A DNA stretch of 64,000 bases, taken from assembly GCF_019748365.1 (NCBI RefSeq), contig NZ_JAIEPN010000051.1, forward strand, positions 58,192-122,191, given 5' to 3'. Made by a program: the position numbers and the translations under genes. The DNA comes from Novosphingobium sp. GTDB lineage: Bacteria > Pseudomonadota > Alphaproteobacteria > Sphingomonadales > Sphingomonadaceae. The notes beneath the pieces are model-generated. The model did no database searches. It was not told where the DNA came from and was given only the letters and a program-made list of their open reading frames with translations. Shown one piece after another: positions 22,954 to 51,185 of the stretch. Every line of letters starts with the position of its first letter. The first letter of the stretch is position 1.

Positions 22954-23646
22954 ATGATTATCAACCGGCGCCATTTTCTTGGCGCCCTTGCCGGAACCGC
23001 TGCATCGCTTGCCTTACCGCGCGAGGGCTCGCAGGCGCAGGAAGCCGAACTGCCGGGTGGCACGTTCTGGGGCACCTTGCCTGTGCCCGATGAGATCGCA
23101 CCGGTCGTCCAGGGTGAACCCGTCACCATCGCGCGCTCGGGCATTCTGCCGCTCATCCCGCGCGCACTGGCCGCGCTGGACCAGCACGGCGCGGCGATCT
23201 CGGTGCGCGACCGGATCGGCATCGTCGATTTTTCGCAGCCTTCACGGCAGGCGCGCTTCCATATCGTCGACCTTGTCGGCGGCACGGTTTCCACGCCGCT
23301 GCTCGTCGCGCATGGCCGGGGGTCGGACCCGGCGAATCGCGGCATTGCCGAACACTTCTCGAATCTGATGGACTCCGAAGCCTCCTCGCGCGGCAGCTAT
23401 GTCACGGGCGAGCTTTACTATGGCAAGCATGGCCGCTCGCGGCGGCTGGTCGGGCTCGATCCGGATAACGACCGGGCGCTGCAGCGCGGCATCGTGATCC
23501 ATGCGGCAAGCTATGTGTCACCCGCCGTCGTCGCCGCGCAGGGCCGCGTCGGCCGCAGCCAGGGCTGCTTCGCGGTGAACCCGCGCGAGATCAACCAGGT
23601 GCTTGAATCGCTCGGCGCTGGCCGCCTGCTCTTTGCGGCGACCTAG
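22954..23646 (+). CDS. L,D-transpeptidase (YkuD_2-type) family protein
   Basis: 230 aa. Twin-arginine-like exported N-terminus (NRRHFLGALAGTAASLAL). The murein L,D-transpeptidase catalytic-domain family is recognised by VDLVGGTVSTPLLVAHGRGSD, HFSNLMDSEASSRGSYVTGE and the active-site segment VIHAASY (His183) to GRSQGCFAV (Cys205). It probably crosslinks or modifies peptidoglycan in the periplasm. Its TAG stop shares its last two bases with the left end of a 269-bp repeat element. Confidence 0.9.
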   Translation: MIINRRHFLGALAGTAASLALPREGSQAQEAELPGGTFWGTLPVPDEIAPVVQGEPVTIARSGILPLIPRALAALDQHGAAISVRDRIGIVDFSQPSRQARFHIVDLVGGTVSTPLLVAHGRGSDPANRGIAEHFSNLMDSEASSRGSYVTGELYYGKHGRSRRLVGLDPDNDRALQRGIVIHAASYVSPAVVAAQGRVGRSQGCFAVNPREINQVLESLGAGRLLFAAT

Positions 23647-23913
23647 AGCCTGTCCTGATGAGGTGGAGGCATCGTCATCGCGTCAGGAAGCTTCTCGGCA
23701 AGGAGCGCCGCGCAGTGCGGGCTGGTAGCCCGTGCCAGCGGCGCGACGCTGTCCGAGAGGCTTCCTGACGCGACCCCGAAGGGGCGGGCCGCTTTTGGCC
23801 CATCGCAGCGTTGATCGTCAGTCACTATAGGCCAGCATAGCTCCCTCCTCTCGCCTCGCGCTGGGCCAAAATCGGCTCCGTGCCGATGCCTCCACCTCAT
23901 CAGGACAGGCTCT
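23645..23913. repeat. 269-bp arm-variable palindromic element, copy 1
   Basis: Terminal inverted arms of 30 bp (23645-23674 and 23884-23913) are perfectly complementary. Inside are two further long stems: 23678-23698 with 23753-23773 (21 bp, one T/G wobble) and 23788-23802 with 23862-23876 (15 bp, one mismatch), so either strand could fold into a three-way junction. Copy 2 at 49965-50233 has the same length and a 200-bp core differing at 7 sites, in opposite orientation, but different arms. It lies between convergent genes: the left end overlaps the transpeptidase TAG stop, and the right arm supplies the last codons and TGA of the MaoC gene. No transposase is encoded. No clear target duplication is seen. 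Confidence 0.95.
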
Positions 23914-24364
23914 GAGCCGGCTTCTTCTGCAACAGCGCCATCCTGAGGCACCGGCAGACGACTTCGTCCCGCTGGTTGAGCGCCTCGTGCGCAAAGGTCA
24001 CGATCCCCGCATCGGGGCGCGACTTGCTCGCGCGCAGTTCCACCACTTCACTGGTCGCGCGCAGGGTATCGCCGAGGAATACGGGCGCGGGCATCACCAG
24101 CTTGTCATAGCCCAGATTGGCAACCAGCGTGCCGACGGTGGTATCGCCCACCGAAAGCCCCACCATCAGCGCAAACGTGAAAGTGCCGTTCACAAGGATC
24201 TGGCCAAACTCGCTCGCCCGCGCGGCTTCGGCATCGATATGCAGCGGCTGCGGGTTGTGCGTCATCACCGAGAACAGCAGGTTGTCCGTCTCGGTCACCG
24301 TCCGCCGGATCTCGTGCGCGATCCTGTCGCCCACCTGCCATTCATCGAAGTAGCGCCCTGCCAT
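23900..24364 (-). CDS. MaoC-family dehydratase
   Basis: About 154 aa hot-dog fold protein with the MaoC hydratase pattern: [11 protein letters not shown] at the start, [20 protein letters not shown] (catalytic Asp/His segment, typical N-P-x-H-x-D) and [14 protein letters not shown]. It probably hydrates an enoyl-CoA. Last gene of the liu operon, where a classical liuC hydratase is absent, so a role in leucine/isovalerate breakdown is possible (inference). I choose ATG 24364 (AAGGGA 9 nt upstream); TTG 24388 and ATG 24382 are alternatives. The final Ser-Leu-Ser and the stop are encoded by the 269-bp repeat's arm. Confidence 0.88.
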
Positions 24365-24389
24365 TCTATCCAATCCCTTCATCCCCAAA

Positions 24390-26395: not shown

Positions 26396-26862
26396 GCGCC
26401 GCACCCTTCCGTGCGTGAGGAAAACGTCAGGTTCATCACTTTCCACTGGCCGTTTTCGCGCACCAGATCGAAGTGATCGAAACCGCAACTGACGAGCTTG
26501 CCCTCGATCGAGACGGTGAACGGCGCCCAGACCATCGCGACATCGCCGTCACGCTCGATCACCATGTCGCCGATCTCCTCATGGAAGCCCGCGCCCAGCT
26601 TCATCGCGCCGGCGTACTCGGCAAAGCTCTGGCTGCGCAGCCCGGTGTACCCGCTGCGCAGCGTACCGCGCGCGGTGACGCGGCCCTGCGGATAGACCAG
26701 CTCAAGGAGCGCCGGACCATCGCCGGCTTCAAGCTTGGCAAACAGCGCATAGACGACAGCCATTACCTCCTTGTCGCCAAAATCGGGCGGCGGGAGGCGG
26801 TCGGCCTGAGGGAGTGGCTGCGCAGCGAGCGCAAGGGCGGAGAGGAGCGTGATCATGGGCAT
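26392..26862 (-). CDS. NTF2-like exported small protein
   Basis: 156 aa. Short hydrophobic signal (MITLLSALALAAQPLPQ) followed by an NTF2/SnoaL-like domain (VYALFAKLEAGDGPALLELVYPQG, MVWAPFTVSIEGKLVSCGFDHFDLVRENGQWKVMNLTF, quoted in parts). Its start ATG overlaps the liuB stop (TGATG), and its stop overlaps the liuD start, so it is translated with the carboxylase subunits. Its role between two carboxylase genes is unknown; it may be an accessory protein of the operon or an unrelated passenger. Confidence 0.8.
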   Translation of the reverse strand: MPMITLLSALALAAQPLPQADRLPPPDFGDKEVMAVVYALFAKLEAGDGPALLELVYPQGRVTARGTLRSGYTGLRSQSFAEYAGAMKLGAGFHEEIGDMVIERDGDVAMVWAPFTVSIEGKLVSCGFDHFDLVRENGQWKVMNLTFSSRTEGCGA

Positions 26863-28520
26863 CACATCCGAAACACCCCAAACCGGGGCGCCTCCGCTAT
26901 CGGCGTTTCCAGACACACCCCCAGCGCCAGCCCGAGTACATCGCGGGTCTGCACCGGATCGATCACCCCGTCGTCCCACAGCCGCGCCGTCGCGTAATAA
27001 GGATTGCCCTCATCCTCATACTTCTGCCGGATCGGCGCCTTGAACGCCTCGGCCTCCTCCGGCGTCCATTTGTCCGCATCGCGGTGGACGGTCGCCAGCA
27101 CCGAAGCCGCCTGCTCCCCGCCCATCACGCTGATGCGGGCATTGGGCCAGGTGAAGAGGAAGCGCGGATCATAGGCCCGCCCGCACATGCCATAATTGCC
27201 CGCGCCGAAGCTGCCGCCGATCAGCACGGTCAGCTTGGGCACTTGCGCAGTGGCGACAGCTGTCACCAGCTTGGCGCCATGCTTTGCAATGCCTTCGGCC
27301 TCATACTTGCCGCCGACCATGAAGCCTGAAATGTTCTGCAGGAACAGCAGCGGAATGCGGCGCTGGCAGGCGAGTTCGATGAAATGCGCGCCCTTGACCG
27401 CGCTCTCGCTGAACAACACCCCGTTGTTGGCAAGGATCGCCACCGGCATGCCCCAGATATGCGCAAAGCCGCAGACCAAAGTGGTGCCGTAAAGCGCCTT
27501 GAACTCGTGGAACTCGCTGCCATCCACGATCCGCGCAATCACCTCATGCACATCATAAGGCGCGCGGACGTCTTCGGGGATGATGGAGTATAGGTCCTCC
27601 GCGTCATACTTGGGCGGGCGAGGTACAAAAATAGGGACAGTCCCCATTTTCGCATCACCCCCTCCGCTTCCCCCACCAGCTTGCCCGAAAATGGGGACTG
27701 TCCCTATTTTTGTGCCGAGGTGCGACACGATATCGCGCACGATGGTCAGCGCATGCTCGTCATTGTCAGCCAGATGATCGACCACGCCCGATTTGCGTGC
27801 ATGCAGATCGCCGCCGCCCAGTGCTTCGGCGCTGATTTCCTCACCCGTCGCGGCCTTCACCAAGGGCGGCCCCGCAAGGAAGATCGTGCCTTGTTCGCGC
27901 ACGATCACGCTTTCATCGCTCATCGCGGGGACATAGGCGCCGCCGGCGGTGCAGCTGCCCATCACGCTGGCGATCTGCGGAATGCCCGCCGCGCTCATCT
28001 GCGCCTGATTGTAGAAGAACCGCCCGAAATGGTCGCGGTCCGGAAAGACCTCGGCCTGGTTGGGCAGGTTCGCCCCGCCGCTGTCGACGAGGTAGATGCA
28101 CGGCAGACGGTTTTCCCGAGCAATTTCCTGCGCGCGTATGTGCTTCTTCACCGTCATCGGGAAGTAGGTGCCACCCTTCACCGTCGCATCATTGGCGAAG
28201 ATCATGCACTGGCGACCCGATACGCGCCCAATCCCGGTAATGATGCCAGCGCCGGGCACTTCGTCACCATACATCCCGTTCGCGGCGAGTTGGCCGAGTT
28301 CAAGGAACGGCGAGCCGGGATCGAGCAGGCGCTCGACGCGGTCACGGGGCAAGAGCTTGCCCCGCGACACATGCCGGGCGCGGGACTTTTCATCGCCGCC
28401 GAGTGCGGCCTTGGCGACGCGCGCGCGCAGCTCTGCCGCCAGCGCCCGGTTGTGCGCGGCCCGCGCCTGCGCTTCGGGGCTGGAAAGGTCGAGATTGGAG
28501 GATAGGACAGGGGCGCTCAT
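26862..28520 (-). CDS. liuB: acyl-CoA carboxylase carboxyltransferase subunit, probably 3-methylcrotonyl-CoA carboxylase beta
   Basis: 552 aa. Carboxyltransferase pattern: N-terminal [52 protein letters not shown] (MCC-type, quoted in part), [15 protein letters not shown], and C-terminal [22 protein letters not shown]. The SGGANLPNQ form is typical of MCC rather than PCC. About residues 270-299 contain an extra low-complexity segment between VSHLGTK and [10 protein letters not shown] encoded by two inverted 27-bp palindromes. ATG 28520 has GGAG 9 nt upstream and is preferred to TTG 28526. Confidence 0.93.
27626..27712. repeat. pair of inverted 27-bp GGGACAGTCCCC palindromes inside liuB
   Basis: 27626-27652 and 27686-27712 are exact reverse complements of each other over 27 bp, separated by 33 bp; each is itself nearly palindromic (AATAGGGACAGTCCCCATT). 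The whole 87-bp block is a multiple of three and is read through in frame, encoding KIGTVPIF, a Gly/Ser linker, and KMGTVPIF. A related core sits in glgA at 8664-8688. Confidence 0.92.
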
Positions 28521-28535
28521 GCGCAAGGCTCCAGA

Positions 28536-48846: not shown

Positions 48847-49428
48847 TCAGCCGTCTCCGCCCGGCTTCGCGCTCCGGCGGGTGACGAACTTGAGCAGGCC
48901 GACCACACGCGATCCCATGCGGATCAAGGTCATGATCTGGGAGGGCGGCACATCGAGCATCTGCTGGTACCAACGGTCCACCGTGGTCACGAAATCGTGC
49001 ATCGCCACGAGGCGGCTGCGGACCTTGGTGCTGATGTGCGGATCATCGATGGTTTCCATCGCGGCGGTGATCGCGCGTACCATCGGATCGATTTCACGCT
49101 CCTTGCGGCCCTGCGCGACTTTGGTGGCCATCTGCCAGAGATCGGTTTCCGCCTCGAAGTGATCGCGCCGATCGCCAAGGACGGGGACGCGGTGGATGAG
49201 CTTCCAGGTGAGCAGTTCCTTGAGGCTGTTCGAGACGTTGGAACGCGCCATGCCGAGCTTTTCGGCAATGTCTTCCGCGGTCAGCGGGCGATCGGACAGG
49301 AACAGCAGGGCCTGAATCTGGGCAACCGAGCGGTTCACGCCCCATTGCGAGCCCATATCGCCCCAGCGCAGCACGAACTGCTCGACCGCTTCGGGCAGGT
49401 TTCTCGACTCGCTGTTTATTTCTGTCAT
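48847..49428 (-). CDS. GbsR/MarR-type winged-helix regulator
   Basis: 193 aa. NLPEAVEQFVLRWGDMGSQWGVNRSVAQIQALLFLSDRPLTAEDIAEKLGMARSNVSNSLKELLTWKLIHRVPVLGDRRDHFEAETDLWQMATKV (in part: MGSQWGVNRSVAQIQALL and ARSNVSNSLKEL) is the GbsR family pattern. Start ATG 49428 sits inside a 20-bp perfect palindrome, pointing to autoregulation; a longer frame upstream reads through non-family sequence. It likely also controls the SRPBCC gene downstream. Confidence 0.9.
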   Translation of the reverse strand: MTEINSESRNLPEAVEQFVLRWGDMGSQWGVNRSVAQIQALLFLSDRPLTAEDIAEKLGMARSNVSNSLKELLTWKLIHRVPVLGDRRDHFEAETDLWQMATKVAQGRKEREIDPMVRAITAAMETIDDPHISTKVRSRLVAMHDFVTTVDRWYQQMLDVPPSQIMTLIRMGSRVVGLLKFVTRRSAKPGGDG

Positions 49429-49437
49429 GACAGAAAT
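49418..49437. promoter_or_regulatory. 20-bp perfect palindrome over the GbsR-type start codon
   Basis: ATTTCTGTCATGACAGAAAT, exact palindrome covering the ATG (minus strand, 49428-49426). Strong candidate autoregulatory operator. Confidence 0.75.
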
Positions 49438-49564
49438 ATCTGATGATCGGATTGCGAAGTCAAGCGTGAGTTGCCGGGGCGCCGCCTTGATGTCTGCAAC
49501 AGCTTGCTTGACCGGACTGGTGGCTGGTGCTGCAGTGGGCGCGTTGAACCCGGAGGGAGCGCAG

Positions 49565-49966
49565 ATGATCACGGTTACACGCATCGATCCGGCAGGCACC
49601 GCGCATCGCATTGCCGTGCGCGGGCACGAATTCGTGACGGACATGACACCGGCTGCCGGGGCGGACAACGAGGGGCCCGATCCGCACGAGATCTATGACG
49701 CGGCACTGGGGGCCTGCAAGGCGCTGACGGTGCTGTGGCTGGCGCAGCGCAAGGGCATGGCGCTGGAGGACATCGAAGTGGTGGTGACGCGCGATGATTC
49801 GGCAGAGCGCAGCGGGGTCTACCGCCTGCGCACCGCGCTGATGCTGACCGGCGATCTCAGCCAGGAGGAGCGCGAGGCGCTGCTGGCGGCGGCGAAGAAA
49901 TGCCCGGTGCACAAGCTGATGAGCGAAGTGACCACCGAGATCGAGACGGTGCTGGTCGAGCTTTAG
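49565..49966 (+). CDS. OsmC/Ohr-family protein
   Basis: 133 aa. ALGACKALTVLWLAQRKGMALEDIEVVV and KKCPVHKLMSEVTTEIETVL carry the two Cys of the OsmC fold that reduce organic hydroperoxides. ATG 49565 has GGAGGGA 7 nt upstream. The TAG stop shares its last two bases with the left end of the second 269-bp element. Confidence 0.9.
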   Translation: MITVTRIDPAGTAHRIAVRGHEFVTDMTPAAGADNEGPDPHEIYDAALGACKALTVLWLAQRKGMALEDIEVVVTRDDSAERSGVYRLRTALMLTGDLSQEEREALLAAAKKCPVHKLMSEVTTEIETVLVEL

Positions 49967-50233
49967 AGCACTTTCCGACCAATCTGGCTGACCGTGACGG
50001 AGCCGATTTTGGCCCAGCGCGAGGCGAGAGGAGGGAGCTATGCTGGCCCATAGTGACCGACGATCAACGCTGCGATGGGCCAAAAGCGGCCCGCCCCTTC
50101 GGGGTTGCGTTAGGAAGCCCCTCGGACTGCGTCGCGCCGCTGGCACGGGCTACCAGCCCGCACTGCGCGGCGCTCTTTGCCGAGAAGCTTCCTGACGCAA
50201 TCACGGTGAGCCAGATTGGTCGGAAAGTGCTCT
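49965..50233. repeat. 269-bp arm-variable palindromic element, copy 2
   Basis: Arms of 33 bp (49965-49997 and 50201-50233), 32 of 33 complementary, starting AGAGCACTTTCCGACC. The 200-bp core is the reverse orientation of copy 1 with 7 substitutions. As in copy 1, internal complementary stretches allow two long stems inside the terminal stem. Both flanking convergent genes (OsmC and the FtrA-like regulator) end in TAG codons formed at the very ends of the element (T-AGAGC). Nothing coding is seen inside. Confidence 0.95.
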
Positions 50234-51185
50234 AAGCCGCCTGCCCCCGAGCCAGCCGGCGCATCGCCTGCGGGGGCTGGCCGAACGCGCGCAGGAAGGC
50301 GCGGCGCATGCGTTCGGGATCATGAAAGCCGAGCGCAGCGGCGATCTGCTCGATGGGCGCGGGGCTGCCTTCCACGCGTTCGCGCGCGACTTCGAGGCGC
50401 AGACGCTCGACCGCGCGAGCCGGGCTGACGCCGAGTTCGCGGGTGAAGGCGCGGGAGAAGTTGCGCGGGCTCATCGCGGCCCTCTCGGCCAGCACTTCGA
50501 CGGTGAGGCGCTGATCGAGATGGCCGCGGATCCATTCGAGCAGCGCGGCAAAAGGCGTTTCCTGCCCGCCGAGATCGGCCAGCGCCGAGAATTGCGACTG
50601 CCCGCCCGGGCGCCGGTAGTAGACCACCATTTCCTGCGCGACGCGGCGGGCGGTGTCTTCGCCAAGGTCTTCGGCGATGAGCGCGAGCGCGAGATCGATG
50701 CCCGCAGTGATGCCGGCGGAGGTCCAGACATCGCCATCGCGGATGTGGATGCGATCGGGCTCCACCGCGACCTTGGGGAAGAGGCGCGCGAGCTGGGCAG
50801 CGCGGCGCCAGTGCGTGGTCGCGCGGCGGCCATCGAGCAGGCCGCCGGCGGCAAGCAGGAAGGCGCCCGAGCAGACGCTGCAGAGGCGGCGCGTGGTGGC
50901 GGCGGCCTCACCCAGCCAGGCCAGGGTGGCGGCGTGGCGCATCGCGGTGCGGCTGCCATCGCCGCCGGAGACGATCAGCGTATCGAGCGGCGGGCCTGCA
51001 CTGGCGGGCAGGGTTTCGAGCAGGACACCGGCGGAACTGCGCACCGCGCCGCCTTCAGTCGAGATAAGAATGAGGCGGTAGGCGCCGGGGGCGAAGCGCT
51101 CGGCCACTTCGAAGCTGGTTAGCGGGCCGACGACGTCGAGGATCTGGAAGTCGGCGAAGAGGAAGAGGCCGATGGTTCTGGGCAT
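50232..51185 (-). CDS. FtrA-like regulator: DJ-1/GATase1 domain plus AraC HTH
   Basis: 317 aa. N-terminal DJ-1/PfpI-like domain (VVGPLTSFEVAERF, nucleophile elbow SVCSGAFLLAAGGLLDGRRATTHW in part) and a C-terminal AraC double HTH (RNFSRAFTRELGVSPARAVERLRLEVARE, ALGFHDPERMRRAFLRAFGQPP). Divergent from a DJ-1/isonitrile-hydratase-like gene, which is its probable target. Ends within the repeat element's edge. Confidence 0.92.
   Translation of the reverse strand: MPRTIGLFLFADFQILDVVGPLTSFEVAERFAPGAYRLILISTEGGAVRSSAGVLLETLPASAGPPLDTLIVSGGDGSRTAMRHAATLAWLGEAAATTRRLCSVCSGAFLLAAGGLLDGRRATTHWRRAAQLARLFPKVAVEPDRIHIRDGDVWTSAGITAGIDLALALIAEDLGEDTARRVAQEMVVYYRRPGGQSQFSALADLGGQETPFAALLEWIRGHLDQRLTVEVLAERAAMSPRNFSRAFTRELGVSPARAVERLRLEVARERVEGSPAPIEQIAAALGFHDPERMRRAFLRAFGQPPQAMRRLARGQAA

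Follow-up and report, generated by a model that had tools for sequence, protein, structure and literature searches.

The window analyzed here, a 64,000-nucleotide stretch of a Novosphingobium sp. contig (NZ_JAIEPN010000051.1), contains two elements that have nearly the same core and different ends, which raises the question of how the two arms of a repeat can change in sequence and still remain complementary to each other. Based on the evidence below, we somewhat favor the explanation that this is a mobile foldback DNA element of the MITE-like kind that inserts at YTAR, with arms whose complementarity is likely maintained by template-switch repair in folded DNA and not by a guide function.

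Two elements in the window share a core and differ in their arms

The initial annotation had described two 269-bp elements with near-identical cores and self-complementary arms, and our analysis confirmed this description. The element plan consists of two 33-bp arms that flank a core of approximately 203 bp, or approximately 122 bp in a short form, and the cores of the two copies show 7 differences over 201 aligned bp (96.5% identity). The arms of copy 1 pair at 32 of 33 positions (Table 1), and those of copy 2 pair equally well over 33 nt (32/33), or at 34/35 once two flanking bases per side are counted. The claim that the arms of the two copies are unrelated beyond AGAGC was slightly too strong, as these arms, referred to here as classes A and B, match at 47-53% over 30 positions when one-base shifts are allowed, and the left arms of both classes retain CGT(C/G)A at their inner end. 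The sole open reading frame of at least 90 aa that lies mostly over copy 1 (23643-23951, minus strand, 102 aa) is taken as a chance frame.

Table 1. Positions of the elements, their parts and the adjoining features within the window.
Feature	Position	Strand	Remarks
Element copy 1, arm class A	23645-23913	+	269 bp, AGAGC to GCTCT
Element copy 2, arm class B	49965-50233	-	269 bp, AGAGC to GCTCT
Copy 1 left arm, helix P1	23645-23677	+	33 nt
Copy 1 right arm, helix P1	23881-23913	+	complementary to left arm at 32/33
Copy 2 right arm, in element orientation	49965-49997	-	
Copy 2 left arm, in element orientation	50201-50233	-	
Core hairpin P2	23678-23773	+	stem 23678-23698/23753-23773; apical stems 23702-23709/23740-23747 and 23715-23722/23728-23735
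Core hairpin P3	23774-23784	+	CCCC GAA GGGG
Core hairpin P4, conserved loop motif	23785-23880	+	with P3, the part modeled as R1
TA at copy 1 left end, target duplication	23644-23645	+	with G23646, TAG stop of YkuD_2 ORF 22954-23646
Copy 1 right-end counterpart of the TA	23913-23914	+	now TG
ORF with TAG stop made by copy 2 end	49427-49966	+	presumably OsmC-like
Convergent ORF with TAG stop made by other copy 2 end	50232-51185	-	presumably AraC-like

The window also contains two other foldbacks. A separate hairpin at 7696-7729/7755-7788 is a 34-nt inverted repeat, 97% paired and rich in C and G runs (GCCCACCCCCAACCCCTCCCGC...). A different palindrome at 27622-27716, with 31-nt arms of the GGTACAAAAATAGGGACAGTCCCC type, lies in frame within a Carboxyl_trans (PF01039) ORF (26862-28526, minus strand), to which it adds approximately 30 residues, with GTVPIF occurring twice; its central 12 bases had no match in the other element loci examined.

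Eleven copies in the genome carry only two classes of arm

A DNA search of the host genome with the core gave 16 matches, which correspond to 11 separate places; the five surplus matches arise because the inner inverted repeat also aligns to its own opposite strand. The initial annotation had viewed the arms as copy-specific, which did not hold: the 11 copies split into only two classes, with five copies carrying A arms (L001-L005) and six carrying B arms (L006-L011), and arms resembling them are also found in other species. This sharing of arms counts against the earlier view, and the complementarity seen in nearly all copies counts for it. Over 30 positions, A arms are identical to one another and B arms match at 83-100%, as compared with 47-53% between the classes, and the cores of A and B copies are 91-98% identical. 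The proposals that conservation does not lie in the ends of the element and that the two arms change together were supported.

When the draft genome (99.67% completeness) was searched for the arm patterns with up to 3 mismatches, arm A was located at 12 places and arm B at 13, all of which are elements or core-less hairpins. The latter include L027 and L028 with A arms and L031 with B arms, and the junctions of L031 and L209 occur at the same GATTG microhomology; from their sequences, the core-less hairpins are likely deletion derivatives of the element. Generic TAGAGC..GCTCTA palindromes occur at three places in the genome, two of which are core-less hairpins of the family. The idea that the arms are guide-like or target-specific was rejected, because arm matches in the host genome are confined to elements and core-less hairpins, the arms are common to many copies, and the examined insertion sites share only YTA-type bases.

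The element family extends beyond the Sphingomonadaceae

BLAST with the core found matches in 44 of the 298 genomes of the bacterial family, and a covariance model, R1, built on the core's 3' half (P3 and P4) found them in 62 of the 298, with at most 12 candidates scored per genome. With this model, the 11 copies of the host genome were the highest count listed per genome. In a scan of the whole class, which scored at most 10 candidates per genome, R1 matched 21 of 385 genomes, of which 19 belong to other families. An exact motif search of named genomes yielded at least 109 stretches. Among the 80 stretches listed, 70 bear names that we take as Sphingomonadales (Novosphingobium, Sphingomonas, Sphingopyxis, Erythrobacter, Porphyrobacter, Altererythrobacter, Qipengyuania, Hephaestia and others), and the other 10 comprise one from Aureimonas phyllosphaerae, four from a strain labeled Bacillus sp. 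2B10 and five from MAGs whose names go no further than class or phylum. Searches for the core pattern in viral contigs and for core DNA in plasmids and phages returned no match.

The architecture of the element recurs in these distant genomes. Of 40 stretches from genomes outside the family, 30 have long paired arms that enclose an element of 263-304 bp, eight are cut by a contig edge and two show the inner stem only. The arms of the 30 elements differ in sequence, and were called as 33-35 nt in 18 of them, as running on into the core in 10, and as 28 and 38 nt in the remaining two. Two core lengths recur, near 203 and near 122. Within-copy arm identity has a median of 0.93 and a lowest value of 0.73 among 116 elements (98 full and 18 short), which were picked by arm score and core length, such that these identities are tilted toward paired arms. 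In one genome (G688), family members L346-L351 have tips of AGGTTGAGG or AGCTTGAGG in place of AGAGC; the tip itself is therefore also variable between lineages.

The element has moved and inserts at the TA of YTAR

That the element is mobile, as initially proposed, is supported by empty sites. The flanks of each of four copies (L001, L003, L006 and L009) were joined and queried against 61 genomes including the host genome, and uninterrupted junctions were found for three of them; L006 had no spanning match among the 61. The empty sites for L009 (in G315), L003 and L001 (both in G317) read CTAA, CTAG and CTAA, respectively, with a single TA each, and the occupied sites have a TA at each end of the element, the right-end TA of L001 now being TG. 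A second G317 stretch (C590) aligns to the L003 flanks with indels, and its junction is without TA. These three sites show that the element inserts at the TA of YTAR and duplicates the TA. Among 207 element ends, the second position before AG is C or T in 189 and the first position is T in 171.

The intergenic site of L009, empty in G315, is occupied in G317 (C162) by a decayed core-less B-like hairpin (L275), and in G108 a divergent member in reverse orientation (L058, approximately position 1653) is nested within the P4 loop of another element.

The core folds as a branched hairpin that is conserved by paired changes

The predicted fold of copy 1 is very stable on both strands, with -189.1 kcal/mol for the plus strand as compared to -115.1 (sd 5.0) in 200 shuffles (z -14.9), and -187.6 kcal/mol for the opposite strand (z -13.9). 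Inside the arm helix, the core forms hairpins P2, P3 and P4. The loop motifs of P4 are nearly invariant, reading GTCAC.ATG......CAT.GCTCCCTCCTC in relatives and GTCACTATA in copy 1, and in the short form of the element P2 has shrunk to a mini-hairpin.

An alignment of 35 full elements, obtained from 40 by removal of L053, L058, L062, L063 and L068 (in which P2 is absent or reduced, or which are nested or lie at the edge of a contig), was used to follow the 96 pairs of this structure. Standard pairs occupy 96.1% of cells, a number that is favored because this alignment also served to derive the structure, and both sides have changed at 79 of the 96 pairs. The covariation score is 0.560, as compared to 0.165 for shuffled alignments and at most 0.090 for slid ones. 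Changes on both sides occur in 31 of 32 pairs of the arm helix and in none of the four pairs at the base of P4 (helix 7). For the P3-P4 part, compensated changes occur in 17 of 28 pairs across 72 rows, which were retained from 111 candidates after 39 were removed by hand, some misframed by inserts and others to limit the size of the set. We conclude that the core folds as a branched hairpin that is kept with paired changes in nearly every stem.

Arm pairing was also scored at the 109 motif places of named genomes, of which 10 near a locus edge were set aside. Pairing of at least 20 nt at 75% or higher was present at 93 of the 99 testable places and missing at six, and when arms from different elements were paired with each other as a control, 29 of 293 combinations reached the same mark.

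Arms change on both sides, including by transversion

Changes within the arms were counted between 44 disjoint pairs of close elements, using 106 of the 116 elements, namely those with at least 26/33 arm matches, a sample that is tilted toward paired arms. In these pairs, 138 arm columns have changed on both sides, 67 of them by transversion. Transversions are not produced through a G·U intermediate. The same 44 pairs contain 114 mispaired arm columns, which indicates that mispairs last and that correction of the arms is slow. Template switching predicts changes that lie in tracts, and the clustering we observed is only weak, with 27 adjacent paired changes as compared to 20.3 expected (p 0.045), an expectation that treats arm columns as equally variable even though some vary more than others.

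Arms and cores also occur in mosaic combinations. For arm A, the ten best arm matches in other species have arms at 80-90% and cores at 71-95% identity to copy 1, and for arm B the ten best have arms at 77-97% and cores at 72-82% identity to copy 2. Gene conversion of cores is the simplest route to such mosaics and, judging from these comparisons, the likely one.

Template switching during replication is a described route by which stems are fixed (PMC8794818). In the explanation we favor, a DDE-type transposase acting in trans would move the element, reading little beyond TA-GAGC and the foldback geometry. Replication would stall at the hairpin and one arm would serve as the template for the other, such that mutations spread to both and the arm pair drifts. 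Where two elements reside in one genome, their cores may be gene-converted, with the non-homologous arms ending the tract, which would leave near-identical cores between different arms. The initial annotation had offered two routes to paired divergence: copying of one arm onto the other remains the likeliest route, and a swap of both arms as a unit is better read as conversion of the core, with the arms probably staying put. Selection for the pairing of single-stranded DNA, or of RNA from both strands, would yield much the same data.

A possible although doubtful alternative is that the fold itself is selected, in that a transposase or host protein recognizes the folded single strand or cruciform through arm length and junction, which would leave arm sequence free and place compensatory changes under selection. 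Such recognition would fit the 263-304-bp length of the 30 elements outside the family, 18 of which have 33-35-nt arms despite their different sequences, as well as the nearly invariant loop motifs of P4, which require selection, and the mini P2 hairpin that the short form retains. It fits less well with the paired changes that are transversions, which are close to half of the total (67/138) and have no stable intermediate, and no enzyme is known for it, Y1_Tnp being found in only 12 of 62 carrier genomes.

No transposase or partner insertion sequence was found to track the element

Candidate movers were sought among transposase domains. DDE_3, the domain of IS630-type transposases, had no match in the host genome, and in the family it occurs in 77 of 298 genomes without association with the element (14/62 carriers versus 63/236 non-carriers, p 0.63). 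Y1_Tnp has one match in the host genome and occurs in 40 of 298 family genomes (12/62 carriers versus 28/236 non-carriers, p 0.14).

An autonomous partner with the same arms was found neither at the inspected loci nor by arm pattern, which was searched for A and B in the host genome and for B in the family. The draft host genome contained no insertion sequence sharing arm A or arm B. Across the 298 family genomes, arm B occurs at 43 places in 12 genomes, and these places, 15 of which were inspected as loci and the rest judged by spacing, consist of elements, contig-end fragments, core-less hairpins and lone arms, with no transposase-sized pair of B arms or insertion sequence among them. For the single B-like arms at L188, L204 and L206, the sequence examined contained no convincing counterpart.

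The element may in principle be an ordinary MITE of the IS630/Tc1 type, with a partner insertion sequence that is extinct or resides elsewhere and arm classes that represent the terminal inverted repeats (TIRs) of different partner transposases, and we consider this unlikely. IS630 prefers CTAG, and the element resembles IS630/Tc1-mariner MITEs in its TA duplication within YTAR, its short conserved tip, its terminal inverted repeats and its freedom from any notable ORF; recurrence of the arm classes across species is likewise in keeping with such an origin. Unlike those MITEs, the element has no matching insertion sequence ends in the host draft genome, or for arm B in the 298 family genomes, and DDE_3 is absent from its own genome and is not associated with the element in the family. 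The reading would also need many unseen partners and would leave the fixed arm length unexplained.

REP/REPIN repeats, which consist of palindromic DNA mobilized in trans by RAYT, offer another comparison. The present element is similarly palindromic mobile DNA, presumably moved in trans; it differs in duplicating TA, which is not expected of a Y1 transposase, and in that Y1_Tnp (RAYT) genes do not clearly track it, as the carrier counts above indicate. With regard to MITEs in general, the element is short and non-coding and has inverted terminal repeats (269 bp, 33-bp arms), and target duplication with an empty site was found at three of four loci queried. The definition of type I and type II MITEs uses TIRs shared with an autonomous insertion sequence (PMC10969869), and such sharing was absent from the host draft genome and, for arm B, from the 298 genomes.

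Stop codons follow mainly from the target sites, and mispairs disfavor a one-strand RNA

The ends of the element frequently provide the stop codons of long ORFs: stops are formed by both ends in 19 of 106 elements, by one end in 49 and by neither in 38. Copy 2 forms stops at both ends and copy 1 at its left end, and on the right of copy 1 a MaoC-like ORF (23900-24388, minus strand) runs past the TG into the arm. YTAR sites in the window that lack an element gave a broadly similar pattern (both 4, one 18 and none 22 of 44), which weakens stop-codon targeting as a special trick of the element; placement at stop codons follows mostly from where YTAR sites fall in GC-rich DNA.

Whether pairing is maintained in RNA can be assessed from mispairs, as an RNA that works from one strand tolerates G·U and is not expected to contain A·C. 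In 75 non-redundant elements, drawn from the 98 full ones, mispairs at the positions where the two strand folds agree numbered 108 for G·T and 109 for A·C. As a yardstick, the acceptor stems of 17 tRNAs encoded in the sequence examined contain 7 G·T and 0 A·C. Pairing therefore seems to be kept at the level of DNA or on both strands and not in a one-strand RNA, given that the mispairs have no overall strand bias. An earlier count based on the plus-strand fold had pointed the other way (159 G·T versus 57 A·C), and it is biased by that fold. By stem, the bias goes in opposite directions, with 31 G·T and 14 A·C in P2 and 8 G·T and 24 A·C in upper P4. In the P3-P4 alignment, mispairs of P4 mostly have C on the 5' side and A on the 3' side, a strand bias opposite to that of P2.

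Against this background, it is improbable that the element serves convergent genes as a bidirectional terminator of transcription or as a structure at the 3' ends of their RNAs, a function that would operate in the RNA of both strands and hence leave no net G·U bias. The stop codons formed at its ends and the high stability of the hairpin on both strands accord with that function; the broadly similar pattern at sites lacking the element does not, the orthologous sites that are empty in relatives at three loci indicate that it is not needed there, and a conserved 200-bp core would be superfluous. A mobile or regulatory structured RNA made from one strand (ncRNA, retroelement-like) is very improbable, as its complex branched fold, strong covariation and excess of G·T over A·C in the plus-strand fold are set against the strand-neutral count and the lack of a match to any Rfam family. 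The window had no gathering-level match to any Rfam covariance model, and 20 related loci returned one tRNA adjoining an element and three hits far below gathering scores.

Relation to known repeats and significance

Palindrome-rich intergenic repeats of the same class include the Rhizobium intergenic mosaic elements (RIME). The ERIC/IRU/RU-1, RUP and Correia/NEMIS repeats measure approximately 100-200 bp and have TIRs of 7-24 contiguous pairs, and for most bacterial MITE-like repeats matching insertion sequence ends were not found or not looked for (PMC2229807). Like these repeats, the element is small and mostly intergenic, with TA ends, target duplication and a highly paired stem-loop. Unlike them, it is 269 bp in length, its 33-bp arms are not conserved in sequence, its core is branched and its distribution is class-wide. 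The CIR repeats of Caulobacter and Brucella, which that source gives as approximately 110 bp with GANTC conserved and without pairing of the 5' and 3' ends, are also long intergenic alphaproteobacterial repeats with paired structure and TA ends (PMC2229807). Identity with CIR was rejected on the grounds of the 269-bp length, the paired ends and the scarcity of GANTC, which is present in no more than 21 of 116 elements.

Nothing recognizable as this element appeared among the titles and abstract openings listed for open-license papers on palindromic repeats, MITEs and related subjects in sphingomonads and alphaproteobacteria. We file it as a large element family, undescribed in that literature as far as searched, which is MITE-like in kind and for which the arm searches described above found no TIRs shared with an autonomous insertion sequence.

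The ends of a transposon are normally its invariable part. Here, they rank with the most variable parts, and it is length, pairing and the inner core that are kept across the class. Ends that vary and stay paired suggest either that DNA shape is recognized or that one arm is continuously repaired from the other. As a conjecture to which we would assign a low probability, the element may represent a superfamily of fold-addressed transposons, in which a putative alphaproteobacterial transposase reads DNA shape, namely a 33-bp foldback arm that closes a branched junction, together with a short TA tip, and in which the ends drift while paired and self-templated repair of the arms maintains the element. 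As no mover was found, common environmental bacteria may harbor a new transposition activity of which the element is a marker. Furthermore, paired arm variants that number in the dozens and sit on a related core constitute a natural data set for template-switch hairpin repair in bacteria.
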